Virus record (IMG/VR): IMGVR_UViG_3300006735_000280
Coordinates: 1-23,014 of that record
Direction: 5' to 3' (one strand)
Source of the DNA: a virus
DNA: 23,014 nucleotides
The notes beneath the pieces were generated by a model. The model did not search any database. It was given only the letters and a program-made list of their open reading frames with translations, and was not told where the DNA came from. Below, piece after piece: positions 8,054-20,500 of the stretch. Positions within the stretch are counted from its first letter, which is position 1. Every line of letters begins with the position of its first letter. The position numbers and the translations under genes are program-made.

Positions 8054-8734
8054 TCATGATTGTTGATTTATATATTCTTCTACTACTTTTGCAGCAACTT
8101 TATCTGCATTTTCATTTGGATGAGCATCATAAATAATTCTATTTTTTGGATGTTGCCAAACCCAATACTTTTTAGATAAATTACTTCTACCTGTCAAACC
8201 ACGTTTCATATTTTTTTCTGCATAATTTTTGTAATCTAAATCATCACAATCTTCTTCTTTTTTACAATAACCAGACTTACCCTCAAAAGACAAATGAATG
8301 TGTTTCATATTGTTATCTTGGAAAAATTTAACAAACTGATTATCTATATCTTCTCCAAAATCAAATGGATGTCTTAATGGATAACCACCAGTATTATATA
8401 GAAAGAAAATTACGTTAGAGTGTAAATTATTAATATCCAAAAGTAAATTTTTGTATTCAGTTAATAACTTTTCAATTGAATCTTGTTTGTTTTGTTGGAA
8501 AGAATGTACAAAATTTTGGTGTGTTTGTTTCGTATCACCACGTGAAAATGTCCTGATAGGTGTGGGTAATTGACACACTACAGCCTCTATCTCAACATTG
8601 TTTTGATAATTTTTTATTGTTTTTTCAATTAAAGATAATCCCTTACCATGTAAACTTCTTTTAATTGGACTTACAAGTTTTAAATAATCTGGCCATTTAT
8701 CCGTCCAACTACAACCAATACATAAAACTTTCAT
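8054..8734 (-). CDS. SGNH/GDSL hydrolase-like protein
   Basis: This 226-residue protein begins with a beta strand and 'IGCSWTDKWPDYL' (6-18), matching block I of the SGNH fold with Ser9 as candidate nucleophile (Cys replaces the usual Asp of GDS). It ends with 'IIYDAHPNENADKVAAKVV' (201-217), matching block V with Asp203 and His205. 'FFLYNTGGYP' (110-119) may contain the oxyanion Asn (114), but blocks II and III are not obvious. SGNH enzymes are esterases or deacetylases acting on glycans and lipids; several phages carry such proteins, but here the target is unknown and catalysis is inferred. It is not a standard T4 tail component and looks like an insertion between the chaperone and tape measure genes. 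The start overlaps the 30-aa ORF as ATGA. Confidence 0.72.
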   Translation of the reverse strand: MKVLCIGCSWTDKWPDYLKLVSPIKRSLHGKGLSLIEKTIKNYQNNVEIEAVVCQLPTPIRTFSRGDTKQTHQNFVHSFQQNKQDSIEKLLTEYKNLLLDINNLHSNVIFFLYNTGGYPLRHPFDFGEDIDNQFVKFFQDNNMKHIHLSFEGKSGYCKKEEDCDDLDYKNYAEKNMKRGLTGRSNLSKKYWVWQHPKNRIIYDAHPNENADKVAAKVVEEYINQQS

Positions 8735-13504: not shown

Positions 13505-13813
13505 TTAATCTTTTAATTCATCTATTTCATTTAAAAGTTTTAACGAATCGACTTCTGATTTTAGTTCTTTGATAGATTCTATCAAAATTGGTACTAATTT
13601 ATTATAGTCTACAGACTTAAACTTTCCTCTACCATTCAATCCTTGTTGTTCTTTCACAAGTTCAGGAACGACAGCTTCAACTTCTTGTGCTAACACACCA
13701 ACATCATGTCCCATATCTTTTCGTTTCCAATCATACTCAACACCTCGAAGTTGCATCACCGTATCTAAACCATATTTCATATCTGTAATGTTTTCTTTCA
13801 AGTTCATATCGGA
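13505..13813 (-). other. Peptidase_S74 intramolecular chaperone domain
   Basis: Residues 1268-1369 of the long fibre. The conserved Ser-Asp (1268-1269), LKENI, the 'YDWKRKD' strand, 'GVLAQEVE' and a terminal coiled coil are present. Self-cleavage before Ser1268 is expected from the family. Confidence 0.88.
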
Positions 13814-16800
13814 TGCCACGGTAGATGAGAATGCAACAACGTCACCATCAGCGTGGAATGTTCCACCACTTGCCAATCTAAACTCTTCAACATTAGATAG
13901 GTAAATTTTAATATTATCATCAGTTCCAAAATCAATCCAATCACCACCACTATCTCTACCAACTTTTAATGATGTGTTATAGATAGAGGATATACCTGTT
14001 TGTGCTGCACTTGTACTTAAAGCAACTGTACCATCACCAACCGCGGCGTCTATACCAGTTGATGCTAAAGTACTTGCTGCCATAACTGCCGGCCCACTTG
14101 AACCACCAACTATAAGTTCACCATCATCATCCATTACGGCCGTACCAACTTGGTCAGTACTACTATCTTGTGAAATCAATACTGCTTTATTTGCTAAGGT
14201 CTCTGCTCCTGTTCCACCACTTGATACGGCTAATGGTGTATCAACAATGGTTACCGAAGAAAACGTACCAATGGTACCCGAACCAGATATAGTTGAGACA
14301 TCTAAATGTCCAAATGAACCAGTAGAGGTTGATTTACTAAGGAAGTCTCCACTTGCACTTACAGTACCTTCAACAACAATTCTTTCTGCACTATTACGTG
14401 TGTCAATTGTTAATACTGAAGTACCACCTGCTCCTGCGTCAAATGTTAAGGCATTTGCGTTGTTATCTATTAAATCTATATCGGTAGCTCCAGCTGTTAG
14501 TGTAATATCTCCACCAGTTAAAGTTAAATCTGTAAATGTTGGACTATCACCTGTACCAACTCCGATTGAAGTTCTTAATGTTGCTCCACTTTCTGCTACT
14601 GGATCTCCACTTCCATCACCAACAATCATCTGTCCGTCAGTAAGAACTGACATAGCTGTAATCGCTCCTGTTCCACTTCCAAGTAGAACACCACCATCAG
14701 TTAATGTACTTGCTCCTGTACCACCATCGGCTACAGTCAAGTCAGTAATTCCTGTGATTGTACCACCCTCAATGGTTGCCGTAGTAAATGTTCCGATAGA
14801 TGCACTTACACTTGAACCAGATATATTAGTGGTTCCTGAAGTATTTCTAAATATAACTGAAGCGTCTCCACCAGTGAACGAAGCACTGATAGAATTTCCA
14901 CCAAGTGCCCCCACTACAAAATCTCCACTACCACTCAATGTTCCAGATGTTTTTACAACTCCAGTTGAAGTAACATTACCGACTGCTAAAGTACCAAAGG
15001 TAACATCTGCGTCAGACGTAACGTCTTGGTTAATCGTTGAGTTTGCCTCAATCGTTATAGTTTTAAGACCATCACCTCTGTTTTGACCTAACGTGGTTCC
15101 ATAAACTGCTGAACCCGTTATAGTACCAGTTGAAGTTATATTACCCACTTCAACAATATTTCCTGTGAGTTTAAGACTTCCTTGAGAACTACTCATGTAG
15201 GCTGAATTACTACCTACCCATAAATCTGTACTACCACTAATCAATCCAGCAACTCTTAGTTCTCCACCACCGATTACCAATTTATTAGATGAGTGAACTA
15301 TAGTCATATCTCCATTATTGAAATCAACTACTCCACCACTACCTAAGAATAAATCACTAAACATTTTTGATGAAGTACCAAGTGCTATATCATCATTTGT
15401 ATTTGGTTCAATAGTTCCATCTTTAATATGTATTTGGTCTGCACCTGCTGCTTCAAACGTTATAACGTCATCCGCTGATGCTCGAATTGATGTATCTAAA
15501 TCATCATCTAAATCTATTCTACCTTGACCATCTAAGGTTACATTATCAGTAAATATATTAGACCATTGTGTTCCACTTGCACCTAATGTGTATACACTAT
15601 CTGTACCGACAGTAAAGTTTCCAACAATATCACCCGAACCTGTTATTTGTAAACTACCAGTTACTTTATGGGTGTCGTCTGTAGTATCACCCAATATATT
15701 ACTACCACTTGCGAATGAAGCGGTGATATAACTTACAGAAGAACTCACAATAATTTCTTGTGCGGTTAATCTTCCTGTAAGAGTTGCTGATGCAAATTGT
15801 ACATCAGCGTCTTTTGTTAAATCTTGGTCTACTGTTGCGTTATCTTCAATTGTTAAAGTTTTAGAAGCTGCTCCATAAGTTATAGTACCACTACTTCCAT
15901 CACCAACTGTAAGAGATTCATTCATTGTAAGTGTATTTGCTTGTCCAGCTCCAGTCAATACAATGTTTTGTCCATCACTAACAGTAAGAGTTTCATTTAA
16001 TACTAATTCATGTAAACCCGTACCTGTACTACGTTTAATCTCAGTAAAGTGTCCGAATGAACCACTAACACCACCCGATGCAGTTACTTGAGCTTCAACT
16101 TCTAAACCACCACTTAACTTGACTTTTTCTGCGTCGTTAGTGGTGACAATTTCTAATATACCATTCTTACCACTTGCATCAAATGATAATGCAGAGGCGT
16201 TATTGTCAATCAAATCAACATCAGTTGCCTGACCAGTTAGAGTTATATCTCCAGTGGAAGTTACTCCTGCAAATGTTACTGATGCGTCACTTGTTAAATC
16301 TTGGTTTATCCTTGAGTCATCCTCTACAGTAAGTGTTTTAGATGCTCCACTATATGTTAATGTACCATCATTACCATCTCCAATTGTAAAAGATTCATTT
16401 AAAGTAATTGTTTTGAGACCACCACCTGTGTTTTGTCCAAGTGTTGTACCGTAAACTGCTGAACCACTAACTGTGCCCGTTGAGGTTACATTACCTACCG
16501 ATAAAGTACCTAAAGTAGCATCTGCATCTGTAGATAAGTCTTGGTTTATAATTGAGTTTGCCTCAATTGATATAGTTTTAAGACCACCACCAGTATTCTG
16601 TCCAAGTGTTGTACCGTAAACTGCTGAACCACTAATTGTTCCAGTTGAAGTAACATTTGTTGCGGATAATGTTGCTCCACTAAATGATAAATCACTATCC
16701 TCTGATAATAATCCGGCAGTTCCGTATACAGCGACTCTACCAGAAGTTTGGTTATCAGCTGTTAAGGTATTTGCTCTAAATCCGTGTGCTCCAATATCTA

Positions 16801-17614
16801 AATTACCACCTGCTGTCAATGAGGTTATTCCATCTATAGTTCCACCATTAATATCGGCCGAAGTAAAGATAGCATTTGACGCGGATACGACTGAACCTGA
16901 TATATTTGTGAAATTACCAGTAGTTGCCGAACTGACACCTATTGTTACTCCATCAATAGTACCACCATTAATATCAGCATCGGTGATGGTTACTTGTGAT
17001 TCACCACCTAAAGTAACACCATCTATTTCTCCACTACTTATATATGCTGCTACAGCGTCTCCGTCTGTACCGAGTTGGTCAATATAACCAATTCCATTTA
17101 CATAAATGTCTTTCCATTGTTTAGCACTTGAACCTAAATCAAATGAGTTATCATCATTTGGAATTAATGAAGATGAAAATTCAGCTTCCATTACTACATC
17201 ATCAGAATCCGAATCACCAATGGTTATTTGTCCACCAAGTGTTAAATCACCAGTTACTTTAGCATTACCTTGTATATGTAATGAAGAACCACTTATAATT
17301 GAACCACTAATATTTGCAGCTGCTCCAGAACCACTTGTAAATATAACACCATCTTCATCTGCCTTGATTTGTTGTAAAATAGTTCCGTCTGGTCTTACAA
17401 AATTTATAGAGGAAGTTGCAACAAATATTTCTTTCCAAGTTTGTGTCGCACTACCTAAATCGTAGGTTTCACTGGTTGTTGGTACGAAATCTGCACTTGA
17501 ACTAATTGCAGATTGTGCCTGATTCAACTCCAGTATCGATGCAGTTGAATTGGAGGTTATACCTTTCGGATTGTGTAATTCGGCGTTAGTTAACGCACTA
17601 TGTAATTTAGCCAT
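13505..17614 (-). CDS. Long repetitive tail fibre with C-terminal Peptidase_S74 chaperone
   Basis: This 1369-residue fibre is made of beta-rich repeats. Four 'DLGS....W..I/L' type modules occur near residues 51-65, 156-172, 675-690 and 743-756. Repeated 'VYGTTLGQN.G.GLKTI' units are at about 332, 387 and 837, 'ADINGGTIDG' at 213 and 253, and 'GGTGA' repeats at 964 and 1133. The end is an intramolecular chaperone of endosialidase type (S74): 'SDMNLKENI' at 1268-1276, 'MQLRGVEYDWKRKD' and 'VGVLAQEVEAVVPELV', then a coiled coil (1345-1366). In this family the domain helps trimerise the fibre and cuts itself off just before the conserved Ser, here Ser1268. The fibre probably contacts the host surface. 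It starts with GAGG 7 bases before ATG. Fibre role confident; receptor unknown. Confidence 0.92.
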   Translation of the reverse strand: MAKLHSALTNAELHNPKGITSNSTASILELNQAQSAISSSADFVPTTSETYDLGSATQTWKEIFVATSSINFVRPDGTILQQIKADEDGVIFTSGSGAAANISGSIISGSSLHIQGNAKVTGDLTLGGQITIGDSDSDDVVMEAEFSSSLIPNDDNSFDLGSSAKQWKDIYVNGIGYIDQLGTDGDAVAAYISSGEIDGVTLGGESQVTITDADINGGTIDGVTIGVSSATTGNFTNISGSVVSASNAIFTSADINGGTIDGITSLTAGGNLDIGAHGFRANTLTADNQTSGRVAVYGTAGLLSEDSDLSFSGATLSATNVTSTGTISGSAVYGTTLGQNTGGGLKTISIEANSIINQDLSTDADATLGTLSVGNVTSTGTVSGSAVYGTTLGQNTGGGLKTITLNESFTIGDGNDGTLTYSGASKTLTVEDDSRINQDLTSDASVTFAGVTSTGDITLTGQATDVDLIDNNASALSFDASGKNGILEIVTTNDAEKVKLSGGLEVEAQVTASGGVSGSFGHFTEIKRSTGTGLHELVLNETLTVSDGQNIVLTGAGQANTLTMNESLTVGDGSSGTITYGAASKTLTIEDNATVDQDLTKDADVQFASATLTGRLTAQEIIVSSSVSYITASFASGSNILGDTTDDTHKVTGSLQITGSGDIVGNFTVGTDSVYTLGASGTQWSNIFTDNVTLDGQGRIDLDDDLDTSIRASADDVITFEAAGADQIHIKDGTIEPNTNDDIALGTSSKMFSDLFLGSGGVVDFNNGDMTIVHSSNKLVIGGGELRVAGLISGSTDLWVGSNSAYMSSSQGSLKLTGNIVEVGNITSTGTITGSAVYGTTLGQNRGDGLKTITIEANSTINQDVTSDADVTFGTLAVGNVTSTGVVKTSGTLSGSGDFVVGALGGNSISASFTGGDASVIFRNTSGTTNISGSSVSASIGTFTTATIEGGTITGITDLTVADGGTGASTLTDGGVLLGSGTGAITAMSVLTDGQMIVGDGSGDPVAESGATLRTSIGVGTGDSPTFTDLTLTGGDITLTAGATDIDLIDNNANALTFDAGAGGTSVLTIDTRNSAERIVVEGTVSASGDFLSKSTSTGSFGHLDVSTISGSGTIGTFSSVTIVDTPLAVSSGGTGAETLANKAVLISQDSSTDQVGTAVMDDDGELIVGGSSGPAVMAASTLASTGIDAAVGDGTVALSTSAAQTGISSIYNTSLKVGRDSGGDWIDFGTDDNIKIYLSNVEEFRLASGGTFHADGDVVAFSSTVASDMNLKENITDMKYGLDTVMQLRGVEYDWKRKDMGHDVGVLAQEVEAVVPELVKEQQGLNGRGKFKSVDYNKLVPILIESIKELKSEVDSLKLLNEIDELKD
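16434..16470. repeat. Exact 37-base direct repeat, copy 1 (inside fibre gene)
   Basis: Identical over 37 bases to 16599-16635, with a period of 165 bases (55 codons). It encodes the 'SGSAVYGTTLGQ' unit of the fibre. A third, diverged copy lies near 15085-15115. The identity of the two close copies suggests recent duplication or gene conversion. Confidence 0.9.
16599..16635. repeat. Exact 37-base direct repeat, copy 2 (inside fibre gene)
   Basis: Second copy of the unit at 16434-16470; the surrounding bases differ on both sides, so the exact identity is limited to 37 bases, while the protein repeat is longer. Confidence 0.9.
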
Positions 17615-18184: not shown

Positions 18185-20500
18185 TTACTCCACTCTTATC
18201 CATATATCGTCTGTAGTGGTGTTTACCCATTGTTCACCAACACCATAAGAACCTGAAGTGGTATTAGGATTATGGTTTGCCGTTACTGTCGTGGTAACGT
18301 ATGCAGTTGGTGTTACAGCAGTTCCATCTGATGCAACTCCTTTAGCAACTGCCCATCTTTCATCTTGTGTGTCGTGATATATAGCAGAACCACTATCTAC
18401 TGCTGAACCACTCTGTACAATCAATCCACCATCTACATTAGATGCTGCTGAACCAGTTGCTGTGAATATAAATTGGTCTCCAACTTTCAAATTAGTTGTA
18501 GATAATGTAGTGGTATCACCTTGTACTGTTAAATCTCCAGTCAAGGTTAAATCTGCAAATGTGGGATTTGCATCAGTTGTTAAATCTTGGTTTACAGTCG
18601 AGTTAGACTCAATTGTAATGGTTGAACCTTGTACCTCAAGAGTTCCACCGATTGTTATGTTACCATCTGATGTTAAATTATCTACAGATATATCACCACT
18701 AGCACTTATATTTCCGCTTGCGGAGACATGAGTAGTATTAATATTAGTAATTGTTCCCGTGTTAGTTATATTAGCAACATTAGTAATATTATTACCATCA
18801 ATATTAAGGTCTTGGGTAGCGGTGTGGTTACCTAAATTATCACCACCCGCAATAGCTGCTGCAAGTGATGCTGAAACATCACTAATGGAAGGTAACGAAA
18901 GTTTACCATCTACGACCAATTTACCTAATGAACCACTTGAAACTGATGAACCACTTATAAAGTGTAAATTTGTAAAATCATTTTTTTGTAATAATCCAGA
19001 TTGTCCCATACCAGCATGTGAGGAACAATAATAATATAATGCATTTGGAGTGTCTTTATCAACTTTTATTTCAATATAAGAACCTAAATTACCAGGTGAT
19101 ACTACACTTGTACCAACATTAGTATTGTATTCAGAACCACCACCATGTGTCCCATTTATCGTTGTACTGAATCTAAAGGGATGGCCGTCATTAGAGGAAT
19201 CTGATTGGTCGAACCTATATGTTTTTCCCTCATCAATCGTGAAGTTTGGTGTCATCTCTCCTTCAAAAACATATCTGTTAAAAGGAGGATCGTCAGCACT
19301 ACCTACAGTTACATCAATTATTTCTGTTAAATCACCCACAACCTTACCCATAGAACCAGTTCCAATTACAACTAAGTCACCACTTGCACTTATAGATGAA
19401 CCAGTTATTTGTGCAAACTGAGAATTACCAGCAACATTTAAAGTCCCAGCTATATCAGCGTTACCATCGATATCTACACCAGTTGCGGATAAATTACCAC
19501 TTGCACTTACGGCTCCACTTGCTGTTACATTACCTGTAATATCTAATCCACTTAAACCACTAATTTCACCAGAAGAATTAAATGAACCCGTTACATCTAA
19601 TCCACTTTGAGCATCTACTCTTGATTGAAAATCTACTATTCCTGCTACATCAAGTGTTCCATCTATATCAACTACATCTAAATTAGTTGTTCCGTTTACG
19701 TATAAATCTTTCCATTGTTTTGAATTTGAACCCAAGTCAAATACATTATCCACATCAGGTATGATACTACCACTATATTCTGCGTTTATCTGTATTGAAT
19801 CTGTATCAGCGTCACCAAGTGTTATATTTCCACTCAATAACATATTGGATGCGGTAATATCACCAGTAAGGTCAAGTCCCGTTGCCAATGTCTTACCAAC
19901 ATATTGGTATGCTGTCATAAACACAACTTCATTTGATGCTGGATCGTGGTCAGAACTTAAAAATTGTAATACACCAGTTTTATAATCAAATATGTAATCG
20001 TTTGTTGAGACTATATCACTTGCCCCAAGTGAACCAGTTTGATTACTTTGTGTGTAAGTTGAAGATTTATAAACAATTACACCATATCCTGGAGTATCAT
20101 CTTCTGTAGTTGCATTTGCTAAAGAAGATACAGAATATTTAGGTGAAATAAAATTAGTTTGTTGATTATCATCAATTAACTGTGCACCGATTCCACTATC
20201 GCTTCCTGTAGGATTTAAAAAGAACCATACCTCAGTATTAGTATTAGAAGGAGTCAACTTATGTCTATACCAATATTGCATTAAGTTCGAACCCGATGCC
20301 TGATGGATTGAACCATGTTGAGAACTTCCACTAAATGGTAATCCACTCGATGGTACATAATGTGCCTGTGTGTAAATTTCTTCGGCTCTTAAATCAAGCA
20401 CATTCGTAAACGATTCTTGTGCAGTCGTAAATGTGTTATGCGTATATCTTCTTGACGCTAACAGTCTACTTGATTTTGAACCTGAATCTATAAATCCCAT
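18185..20500 (-). CDS. Tail fibre protein with embedded cupredoxin-like domain (771 aa)
   Basis: A 771-residue fibre-type structural protein. The N-terminal 200 residues are non-repetitive ('ASRRYTHNTFTTAQESFTN', 'YWYRHKLTPSNTNTEVWFF') and probably attach it to the virion. A beta-repeat shaft follows (about 205-395), including 'NVFDLGSNSKQWKDLYVNG' (252-270), nearly the same as a module in the 1369-aa fibre. Residues 405-503 form a cupredoxin-like insert with a full set of candidate copper ligands (His440, Cys492, His495, Met498). More shaft follows (515-670), and the end is 'SYGVGEQWVNTTTDDIWIRVE'. The start at 20500 has a GAGAGAGA ribosome site and lies 8 bases after the previous stop. The fibre call is good; its exact place on the virion is unknown. 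Confidence 0.85.
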   Translation of the reverse strand: MGFIDSGSKSSRLLASRRYTHNTFTTAQESFTNVLDLRAEEIYTQAHYVPSSGLPFSGSSQHGSIHQASGSNLMQYWYRHKLTPSNTNTEVWFFLNPTGSDSGIGAQLIDDNQQTNFISPKYSVSSLANATTEDDTPGYGVIVYKSSTYTQSNQTGSLGASDIVSTNDYIFDYKTGVLQFLSSDHDPASNEVVFMTAYQYVGKTLATGLDLTGDITASNMLLSGNITLGDADTDSIQINAEYSGSIIPDVDNVFDLGSNSKQWKDLYVNGTTNLDVVDIDGTLDVAGIVDFQSRVDAQSGLDVTGSFNSSGEISGLSGLDITGNVTASGAVSASGNLSATGVDIDGNADIAGTLNVAGNSQFAQITGSSISASGDLVVIGTGSMGKVVGDLTEIIDVTVGSADDPPFNRYVFEGEMTPNFTIDEGKTYRFDQSDSSNDGHPFRFSTTINGTHGGGSEYNTNVGTSVVSPGNLGSYIEIKVDKDTPNALYYYCSSHAGMGQSGLLQKNDFTNLHFISGSSVSSGSLGKLVVDGKLSLPSISDVSASLAAAIAGGDNLGNHTATQDLNIDGNNITNVANITNTGTITNINTTHVSASGNISASGDISVDNLTSDGNITIGGTLEVQGSTITIESNSTVNQDLTTDANPTFADLTLTGDLTVQGDTTTLSTTNLKVGDQFIFTATGSAASNVDGGLIVQSGSAVDSGSAIYHDTQDERWAVAKGVASDGTAVTPTAYVTTTVTANHNPNTTSGSYGVGEQWVNTTTDDIWIRVE
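18992..19288 (-). other. Cupredoxin-like (type-1 copper) module in the fibre
   Basis: Residues about 405-503 of the 771-aa fibre. It begins 'NRYVFEGEMTPNFTIDEGKT', continues with 'SNDGHPFRFSTT' (first His, 440), and ends 'ALYYYCSSHAGMGQSG' with Cys492, His495 and Met498. The C-x2-H-x2-M spacing is the same as in amicyanin. Copper binding is inferred from these residues, not shown. Confidence 0.7.

Follow-up and report, generated by a model that had tools for sequence, protein, structure and literature searches.

The tail fibre encoded in the window (the whole stretch of DNA that was analysed, a 23,014-bp IMG/VR virus fragment) contains in its middle a region, residues about 392–508, that is best explained, on its structural model, as a genuine cupredoxin (plastocyanin-like) domain with a type-1 copper loop of amicyanin length. 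We consider it likely that this domain of the fibre is a copper-binding module. The gene, the domain and the four predicted ligands are as follows.

18185..20500, minus strand: tail fibre gene, 771 residues (open reading frame and alignment with the domain-less orthologues L348 and L349)
18977..19327, minus strand: predicted cupredoxin domain, residues about 392–508 (modelled stretch and fold matches)
19181..19183, minus strand: codon of H440, predicted first ligand (His in 176 of 177 domain matches and in 134 of 134 thinned relatives)
19025..19027, minus strand: codon of C492, predicted thiolate ligand (Cys in 174 of 174 domain matches)
19016..19018, minus strand: codon of H495, predicted second His ligand (His in 174 of 174 domain matches)
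19007..19009, minus strand: codon of M498, predicted axial ligand (Met in 174 of 174 domain matches; Gln in 1 of 31 SAR86 domains)

The window virus has a contractile tail, with matches to sheath, tube, and T4 baseplate families; its sheath is nearest to those of Microcystis phage Mel-JY01 (49%) and of the Flavobacterium phages 'immuto' (52%, with 46% of the protein covered). The fibre gene lies on the minus strand, the plus strand of the stretch running through stops, and comparison with L348 and L349 reveals conserved ends (N-terminal residues 1–230 and C-terminal residues about 602–771) around a variable middle. The first-pass annotation had placed a cupredoxin-like insert at residues 405–503, flanked by a β-repeat shaft and holding H440, C492, H495, and M498 with C-x2-H-x2-M spacing. 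All four residues are present with that spacing in the minus-strand translation, on which 19288..18992 corresponds to residues 405–503. The proposed span falls inside the domain but is too short, as the model has its first β-strand before residue 405 and its last around residues 503–507. A β-repeat shaft on both flanks fits, with the refinement that the domain is a mid-fibre insert, the middle being replaced in the closest domain-less relatives. The 771-residue fibre has a single cysteine, C492, which rules out a disulfide role, and a search of the whole record with an 11-row profile yields a single copy of the domain. Elsewhere in the window, a 1,369-residue fibre (13505–17614, minus strand) carries an S74 intramolecular chaperone domain at its end (Pfam 4e-15), and a 226-residue protein among the tail genes (8054–8734, minus strand) matches nothing in PHROG and, above cut-off, nothing in Pfam.

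In terms of fold, AlphaFold2 supplied with an alignment of 134 relatives returned an all-β model of residues 392–508 (pLDDT 96.0, pTM 0.88); a prediction from 11 sequences only was poor (pLDDT 60.5). A cupredoxin fold is a Greek-key β-sandwich of about 8 strands over some 100 residues, and the model agrees with it. All 50 matches listed by VIA-align are cupredoxin-fold copper proteins, the best of those listed being the N-terminal domain of the three-domain nitrite reductase of Hyphomicrobium denitrificans (2dv6/6tfo; Z 9.3, rmsd 2.5, 96 residues, 22% identity). A Z near 9 is only moderately above the background stated for the tool, but the match spans the full length of the domain and the matches listed are all of one kind. 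We take this reductase domain to be a type-1 copper domain that is joined to a larger protein, as the fibre domain is; unlike the window domain, it is part of an enzyme, without a phage or fibre context. Foldseek against the PDB likewise gave 2dv6 (E 6.9e-4), and 47 of its 50 matches listed have the cupredoxin fold, the remaining three being SO1698. Against viral models, Foldseek found 69 at E ≤ 0.001, and the named models among the 50 listed are chiefly structural proteins of cyanophages and other phages, with a few giant-virus "beta-sandwich" proteins. With a confident model and two lists in agreement, the cupredoxin-like fold suggested earlier is borne out. An immunoglobulin V-set domain, the annotation carried by some records, was set aside, no such match occurring among the fold matches listed.

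The predicted site has the type-1 order, a histidine followed, after the penultimate strand, by Cys-x(n)-His-x(n)-Met. H440 lies two residues ahead of a strand in the secondary structure of the model, and C492 closes the penultimate strand (E96-101), before the last strand; in plastocyanin, the first His and the Cys have the same placement relative to the strands. The first-pass annotation had named a fold that keeps the four residues apart as evidence against its reading; the predicted fold and the placement of the residues within it are compatible with four side chains that would come together.

By sequence alone, membership in the cupredoxins is weak. At E ≤ 0.1, the isolated domain was matched by no family other than Copper-bind (PF00127; E 0.022, 15.6 bits), and record-wide the domain is the sole PF00127 match in the 23 kb (E 4e-4, 15.3 bits); at 15.3–16.1 bits, the window domain misses the family cut-off of 21.2 bits. 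PF00127 recognises 23 of the 134 relatives at E ≤ 0.1 (best 2.2e-5), the plastocyanin model TIGR02656 recognises 17 (best 1.6e-4), and the NCBIfam amicyanin model TIGR02657 recognises two (best E 0.042); the window domain itself has no match to TIGR02657 at E ≤ 0.1. The family profile matched 46 PDB sequences at E ≤ 10, of which 11 are plastocyanins, one is a pseudoazurin, and one is a copper oxidase; the others are antibodies and ribosomal protein L31. The top match was an antibody fragment (E 0.041), and a plastocyanin came next (0.051) with all four ligands aligned. Antibodies were the two best PDB matches of the 11-row profile, with pseudoazurin third (E 1.1), and a PDB search with the single sequence gave nothing convincing.

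The loop of the window domain, C-x2-H-x2-M, has the ligand spacing of amicyanin, which is a free electron carrier, whereas its relative here is a domain of a fibre. Plastocyanins, including those encoded by phage petE, share the ligand order of the window domain, but the phage plastocyanins have a C-x2-H-x4-M loop and an Asn after the first His. Asn also occupies this position in classical blue copper proteins. In the fibre family, by comparison, the first-ligand His is followed by Pro, in 174 of 177 domain matches. A profile-profile comparison (hhalign) with 26 phage plastocyanins was not significant (4.7% probability), so descent from petE is not claimed; petE and the virion domain occur together in 4 of 11 isolates. 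Given the faint family matches, the nonsignificant hhalign result, and the His-Pro pair, the window domain therefore belongs to a distinct cupredoxin family, neither plastocyanin nor amicyanin. Separately, a marine euryarchaeal protein (L166) combines four fasciclin domains and a full Pfam Copper-bind domain with a member of the fibre-domain family, the latter nearer the N terminus than Copper-bind.

The conservation of the predicted ligands was assessed in several sets of sequences. The 177 domain matches counted above were reduced to 172 by requiring coverage and the absence of X, and to 134 by k-mer thinning. In these 134 relatives, which are 24–65% identical to the window, the four ligands are the only invariant columns, and the motif is therefore more than chance, which we rule out as an explanation. 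Because the scans that collected the loci were seeded partly on ligand residues (the patterns hold the Cys and the second His and, for genomes, the Met too), a seeding artefact was considered; it is countered by repeated searches with profiles over whole isolate phage genomes and SAR86 genomes. The records searched in this way had been picked for tblastn or pattern matches or for belonging to one family, and prevalence figures drawn from them are not general.

In 24 isolate phage genomes, the 84 matches at E ≤ 1e-3 came down to 64 once those with a common 16-residue core were combined, a step that merges some near-identical domains of different phages. Four, three, two, one, and zero ligands are present in 40, 0, 2, 8, and 14 of the 64, where independent columns would give 13.0, 25.5, 18.7, 6.1, and 0.7. 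In 10,000 permutations, the number of matches with four ligands never exceeded 22 and the number with three never fell below 11; the test ignores relatedness, and the ligand-poor matches form, by reading, about half a dozen groups, so that the independent losses are few. The 64 include a split domain in L341 counted as two halves and an S-PM2 entry that is a C-terminal half, and these partial entries are both of the "2 of 4" states and one of the "1 of 4" states. The ligand set is kept or lost almost as a unit, in a nearly all-or-none manner, which is what a metal site predicts. Two variants, in L341 (ACG-2014j) and L330 (S-PM2), keep the first His and the Cys, but their second His lies seven residues beyond the Cys, and the Met is absent; from their sequences, these domains appear to have an alternative ligand loop.

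Free loss of the ligands among homologues, which the first-pass annotation had named as evidence against a metal site, is not what the alignments reveal: some homologues do lose them, but almost always jointly and in separate paralogous domains. The 24 of 64 isolate matches without a complete set include ligand-free domains that are separate paralogues: one group is a family of structural proteins, another is the second gp7 domain of several phages, and a further one is part of a ~6,200-residue protein. The gp7-second-domain type is intact in S-RIM14 and ACG-2014d. The stand-alone ORF 080 of P-SS2 keeps only the Met of the four ligands, and it was detected in virions with on average 9 peptides (PMC2784084). 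In the SAR86 family, a profile search without motif seeds found all four ligands in 30 of the 31 domains read, which came from 30 loci, of 40 places. In one domain from a SAR86-family genome (L389), the axial Met is replaced by Gln, the residue that serves as axial ligand in stellacyanin.

Within its own fibre lineage the domain is rare. Relatives of fibre residues 1–230 were found in 32 viral loci (61–100% identity), and apart from the window itself the domain is present in one of these 32 orthologous fibres (L347); 31 are without it, among which L356 ends too early to be informative. L347 shares its contig with L001, and the L001 domain is 98% identical. The nearest domain-less relatives, L348 and L349, keep both fibre ends and have the middle replaced, and no copy of the domain was found in seven larger related virus fragments and three isolate relatives (0 of 10). 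The low carriage, the replaced middle, and the absence from these relatives point to a swappable insert: the domain is accessory and exchangeable in the fibre middle, and building this fibre does not require it. Its absence from 31 of 32 orthologues argues against a need for it in fibre stability, which is accordingly a disfavoured candidate for its main purpose.

Beyond this lineage, 211 of 50,697 phage records match the domain at E ≤ 0.001; by name, all are from marine phages or cyanophages except for a record called just "phage" and another called "uncultured". Relaxing the threshold to E ≤ 10 gives 401 phage records, of which two (Psychrobacillus and Vibrio) are beyond the marine and cyanophage groups. 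The control, a T4-like terminase, matched 2,498 records, among them 632 from Escherichia, 328 from Klebsiella, and 200 from Salmonella phages; no Escherichia, Klebsiella, or Salmonella phage is in the match list of the domain over the 50,697 phage records. Marine cyano-, pelagi-, and methylophages have related domains in their fibres and baseplate proteins; enteric T4-like phages do not. The domain is carried by fibres, by gp9-type connectors and gp7 baseplate wedge proteins, and by further proteins with a virion-structural annotation. Of the 24 isolates examined, which were chosen for having matches, 22 have one or more domains with the complete ligand set, and relatives are encoded on at least 590 stretches of viral contigs. 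Profile and record searches agree with the first-pass annotation that motifs of this kind occur widely in structural proteins of marine phages. Two domain-bearing proteins, one at L168 14554–20037 (P-HM2) and the other its MED4-213 homologue, are annotated as PF07686 or immunoglobulin, and these annotations probably confuse two β-sandwich folds. One relative (L125) is on a contig labelled as an Epulopiscium single-cell genome, where it looks out of place; the sequence may be phage or contaminant.

Relatives are also found in bacteria, in lipoproteins that SAR86 and its allies export. In the SAR86 family, 33 of 61 genomes contain a match, mostly in a recurrent protein of ~636 residues. Open reading frames of 550–660 residues in SAR86-family genomes (L395–L415) have a Y-P-[HY]-C-x2-H-x2-M loop, and the ~636-residue protein is a lipoprotein where its start was read; it is perhaps an undescribed surface copper lipoprotein. 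Among 71 genome loci, 16 have open reading frames with the start of a lipoprotein, as read by eye: a signal peptide and lipobox, with poly-Gly after them.

Type-1 copper binding is the best reading of the predicted site, and, if the cupredoxin assignment is right, we regard copper binding as very likely. Since the cytoplasm, where tails assemble, has almost no free copper, the metal would probably be bound after release, from seawater or the periplasm. Copper may then complete and stiffen the exposed loop face, and the face so organised would make weak contacts with the host surface or with neighbouring parts of the virion during adsorption; we put forward the two steps together as a tentative proposal. 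The suggestion that the copper-shaped loop face is a displayed contact module for these partners is made by analogy, and we hold it equally tentatively. The Ig-like domains of other phages, which are thought to make weak surface contacts, are exchangeable β-sandwiches scattered over tail and baseplate proteins, all of which the fibre domain has in common with them. To our knowledge, these Ig-like accessory domains lack a set of metal ligands.

Fold and ligand conservation alone leave the metal unnamed, and the site might hold something other than type-1 blue copper, such as zinc or a Cu(I)-only structural staple. The Pro after the first His (174 of 177) would permit an unusual site, as it leaves one backbone NH fewer; in classical sites, the backbone NH at this position bonds the Cys sulphur. 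However, His-Cys-His-Met in a cupredoxin fold is the type-1 copper set of known proteins, the lone axial change among 31 SAR86 domains is to Gln, as in stellacyanin, and a structural staple is a poor fit with a domain that is dispensable in orthologous fibres, so that we consider another metal unlikely. It is highly improbable that the domain binds no metal and is ordinary Ig-like decoration with residues conserved for folding only. Ligand-free paralogues do occur in virion proteins (14 of 64 matches without any ligand), and the fold works in P-SS2 ORF 080, a virion protein without three of the four, but residues needed for folding would not vanish jointly while the fold persists, and elsewhere, in the 134 relatives, the ligands are the only invariant columns.

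The remaining alternatives accept the copper and differ in what it is for. A redox-active domain on the virion, carrying out electron transfer or consuming reactive oxygen at the cell surface, would agree with a fold and ligand set that are those of electron carriers, but the protein families matched in the record include no partner and the domain is embedded in a fibre, which makes this role very unlikely. Copper could also serve as bait, in a counterpart of the Trojan-horse entry proposed for iron, the loaded domain being recognised by a host copper-uptake protein or by a copper-handling surface lipoprotein. Many marine bacteria have lipoproteins that contain this domain (a match is present in 33 of 61 SAR86-family genomes), and one study discusses a proposal of iron in fibres and receptor use for other phages (PMC11705849). 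We nonetheless find the bait role distinctly unlikely, as no receptor is known, the domain is away from the conserved C-terminal end of this fibre, and cyanophages carry it in baseplate wedge proteins too. Neither electron transfer nor copper-receptor use of the domain finds support here.

The fold and the ligand set of the proposed copper-binding module are already known; a type-1 copper domain as part of a particle was not found described in the full-text literature searched, mainly open-access articles, where the papers listed include none on a virion-borne cupredoxin or blue copper domain. The nearest published idea is that of the HxH iron sites in T4 gp37 and marine phage fibres, the basis of a Trojan-horse proposal (PMC11705849). 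There too, as proposed for the window fibre, a metal is placed in a phage fibre; the HxH iron sites are octahedral and made of paired His residues, whereas the window domain is a self-contained copper-type domain (PMC11705849).

A broader reading, which we regard as possible but more doubtful than the contact role itself, is that fibres and baseplates across a broad group of marine phages contain blue copper centres, with up to several copper-competent domains per genome, that the group shares this module with a family of surface copper lipoproteins in SAR86 and its allies, and that copper acquired after lysis acts as an adsorption switch or contact key. If true, this would make it the first virion-borne blue copper device. 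The analysis gives a testable meaning to domains that are now annotated as hypothetical, tail fibre, or immunoglobulin, and, if the copper is real, its blue colour would be an easy spectroscopic handle on the fibres of cyanophages and pelagiphages. Real copper would further suggest that abundant ocean bacteria bear a family of copper lipoproteins yet to be described. Marine phage particles would then bear a redox metal site known from cellular electron carriers and enzymes, and phage adsorption would be tied to the availability of copper.
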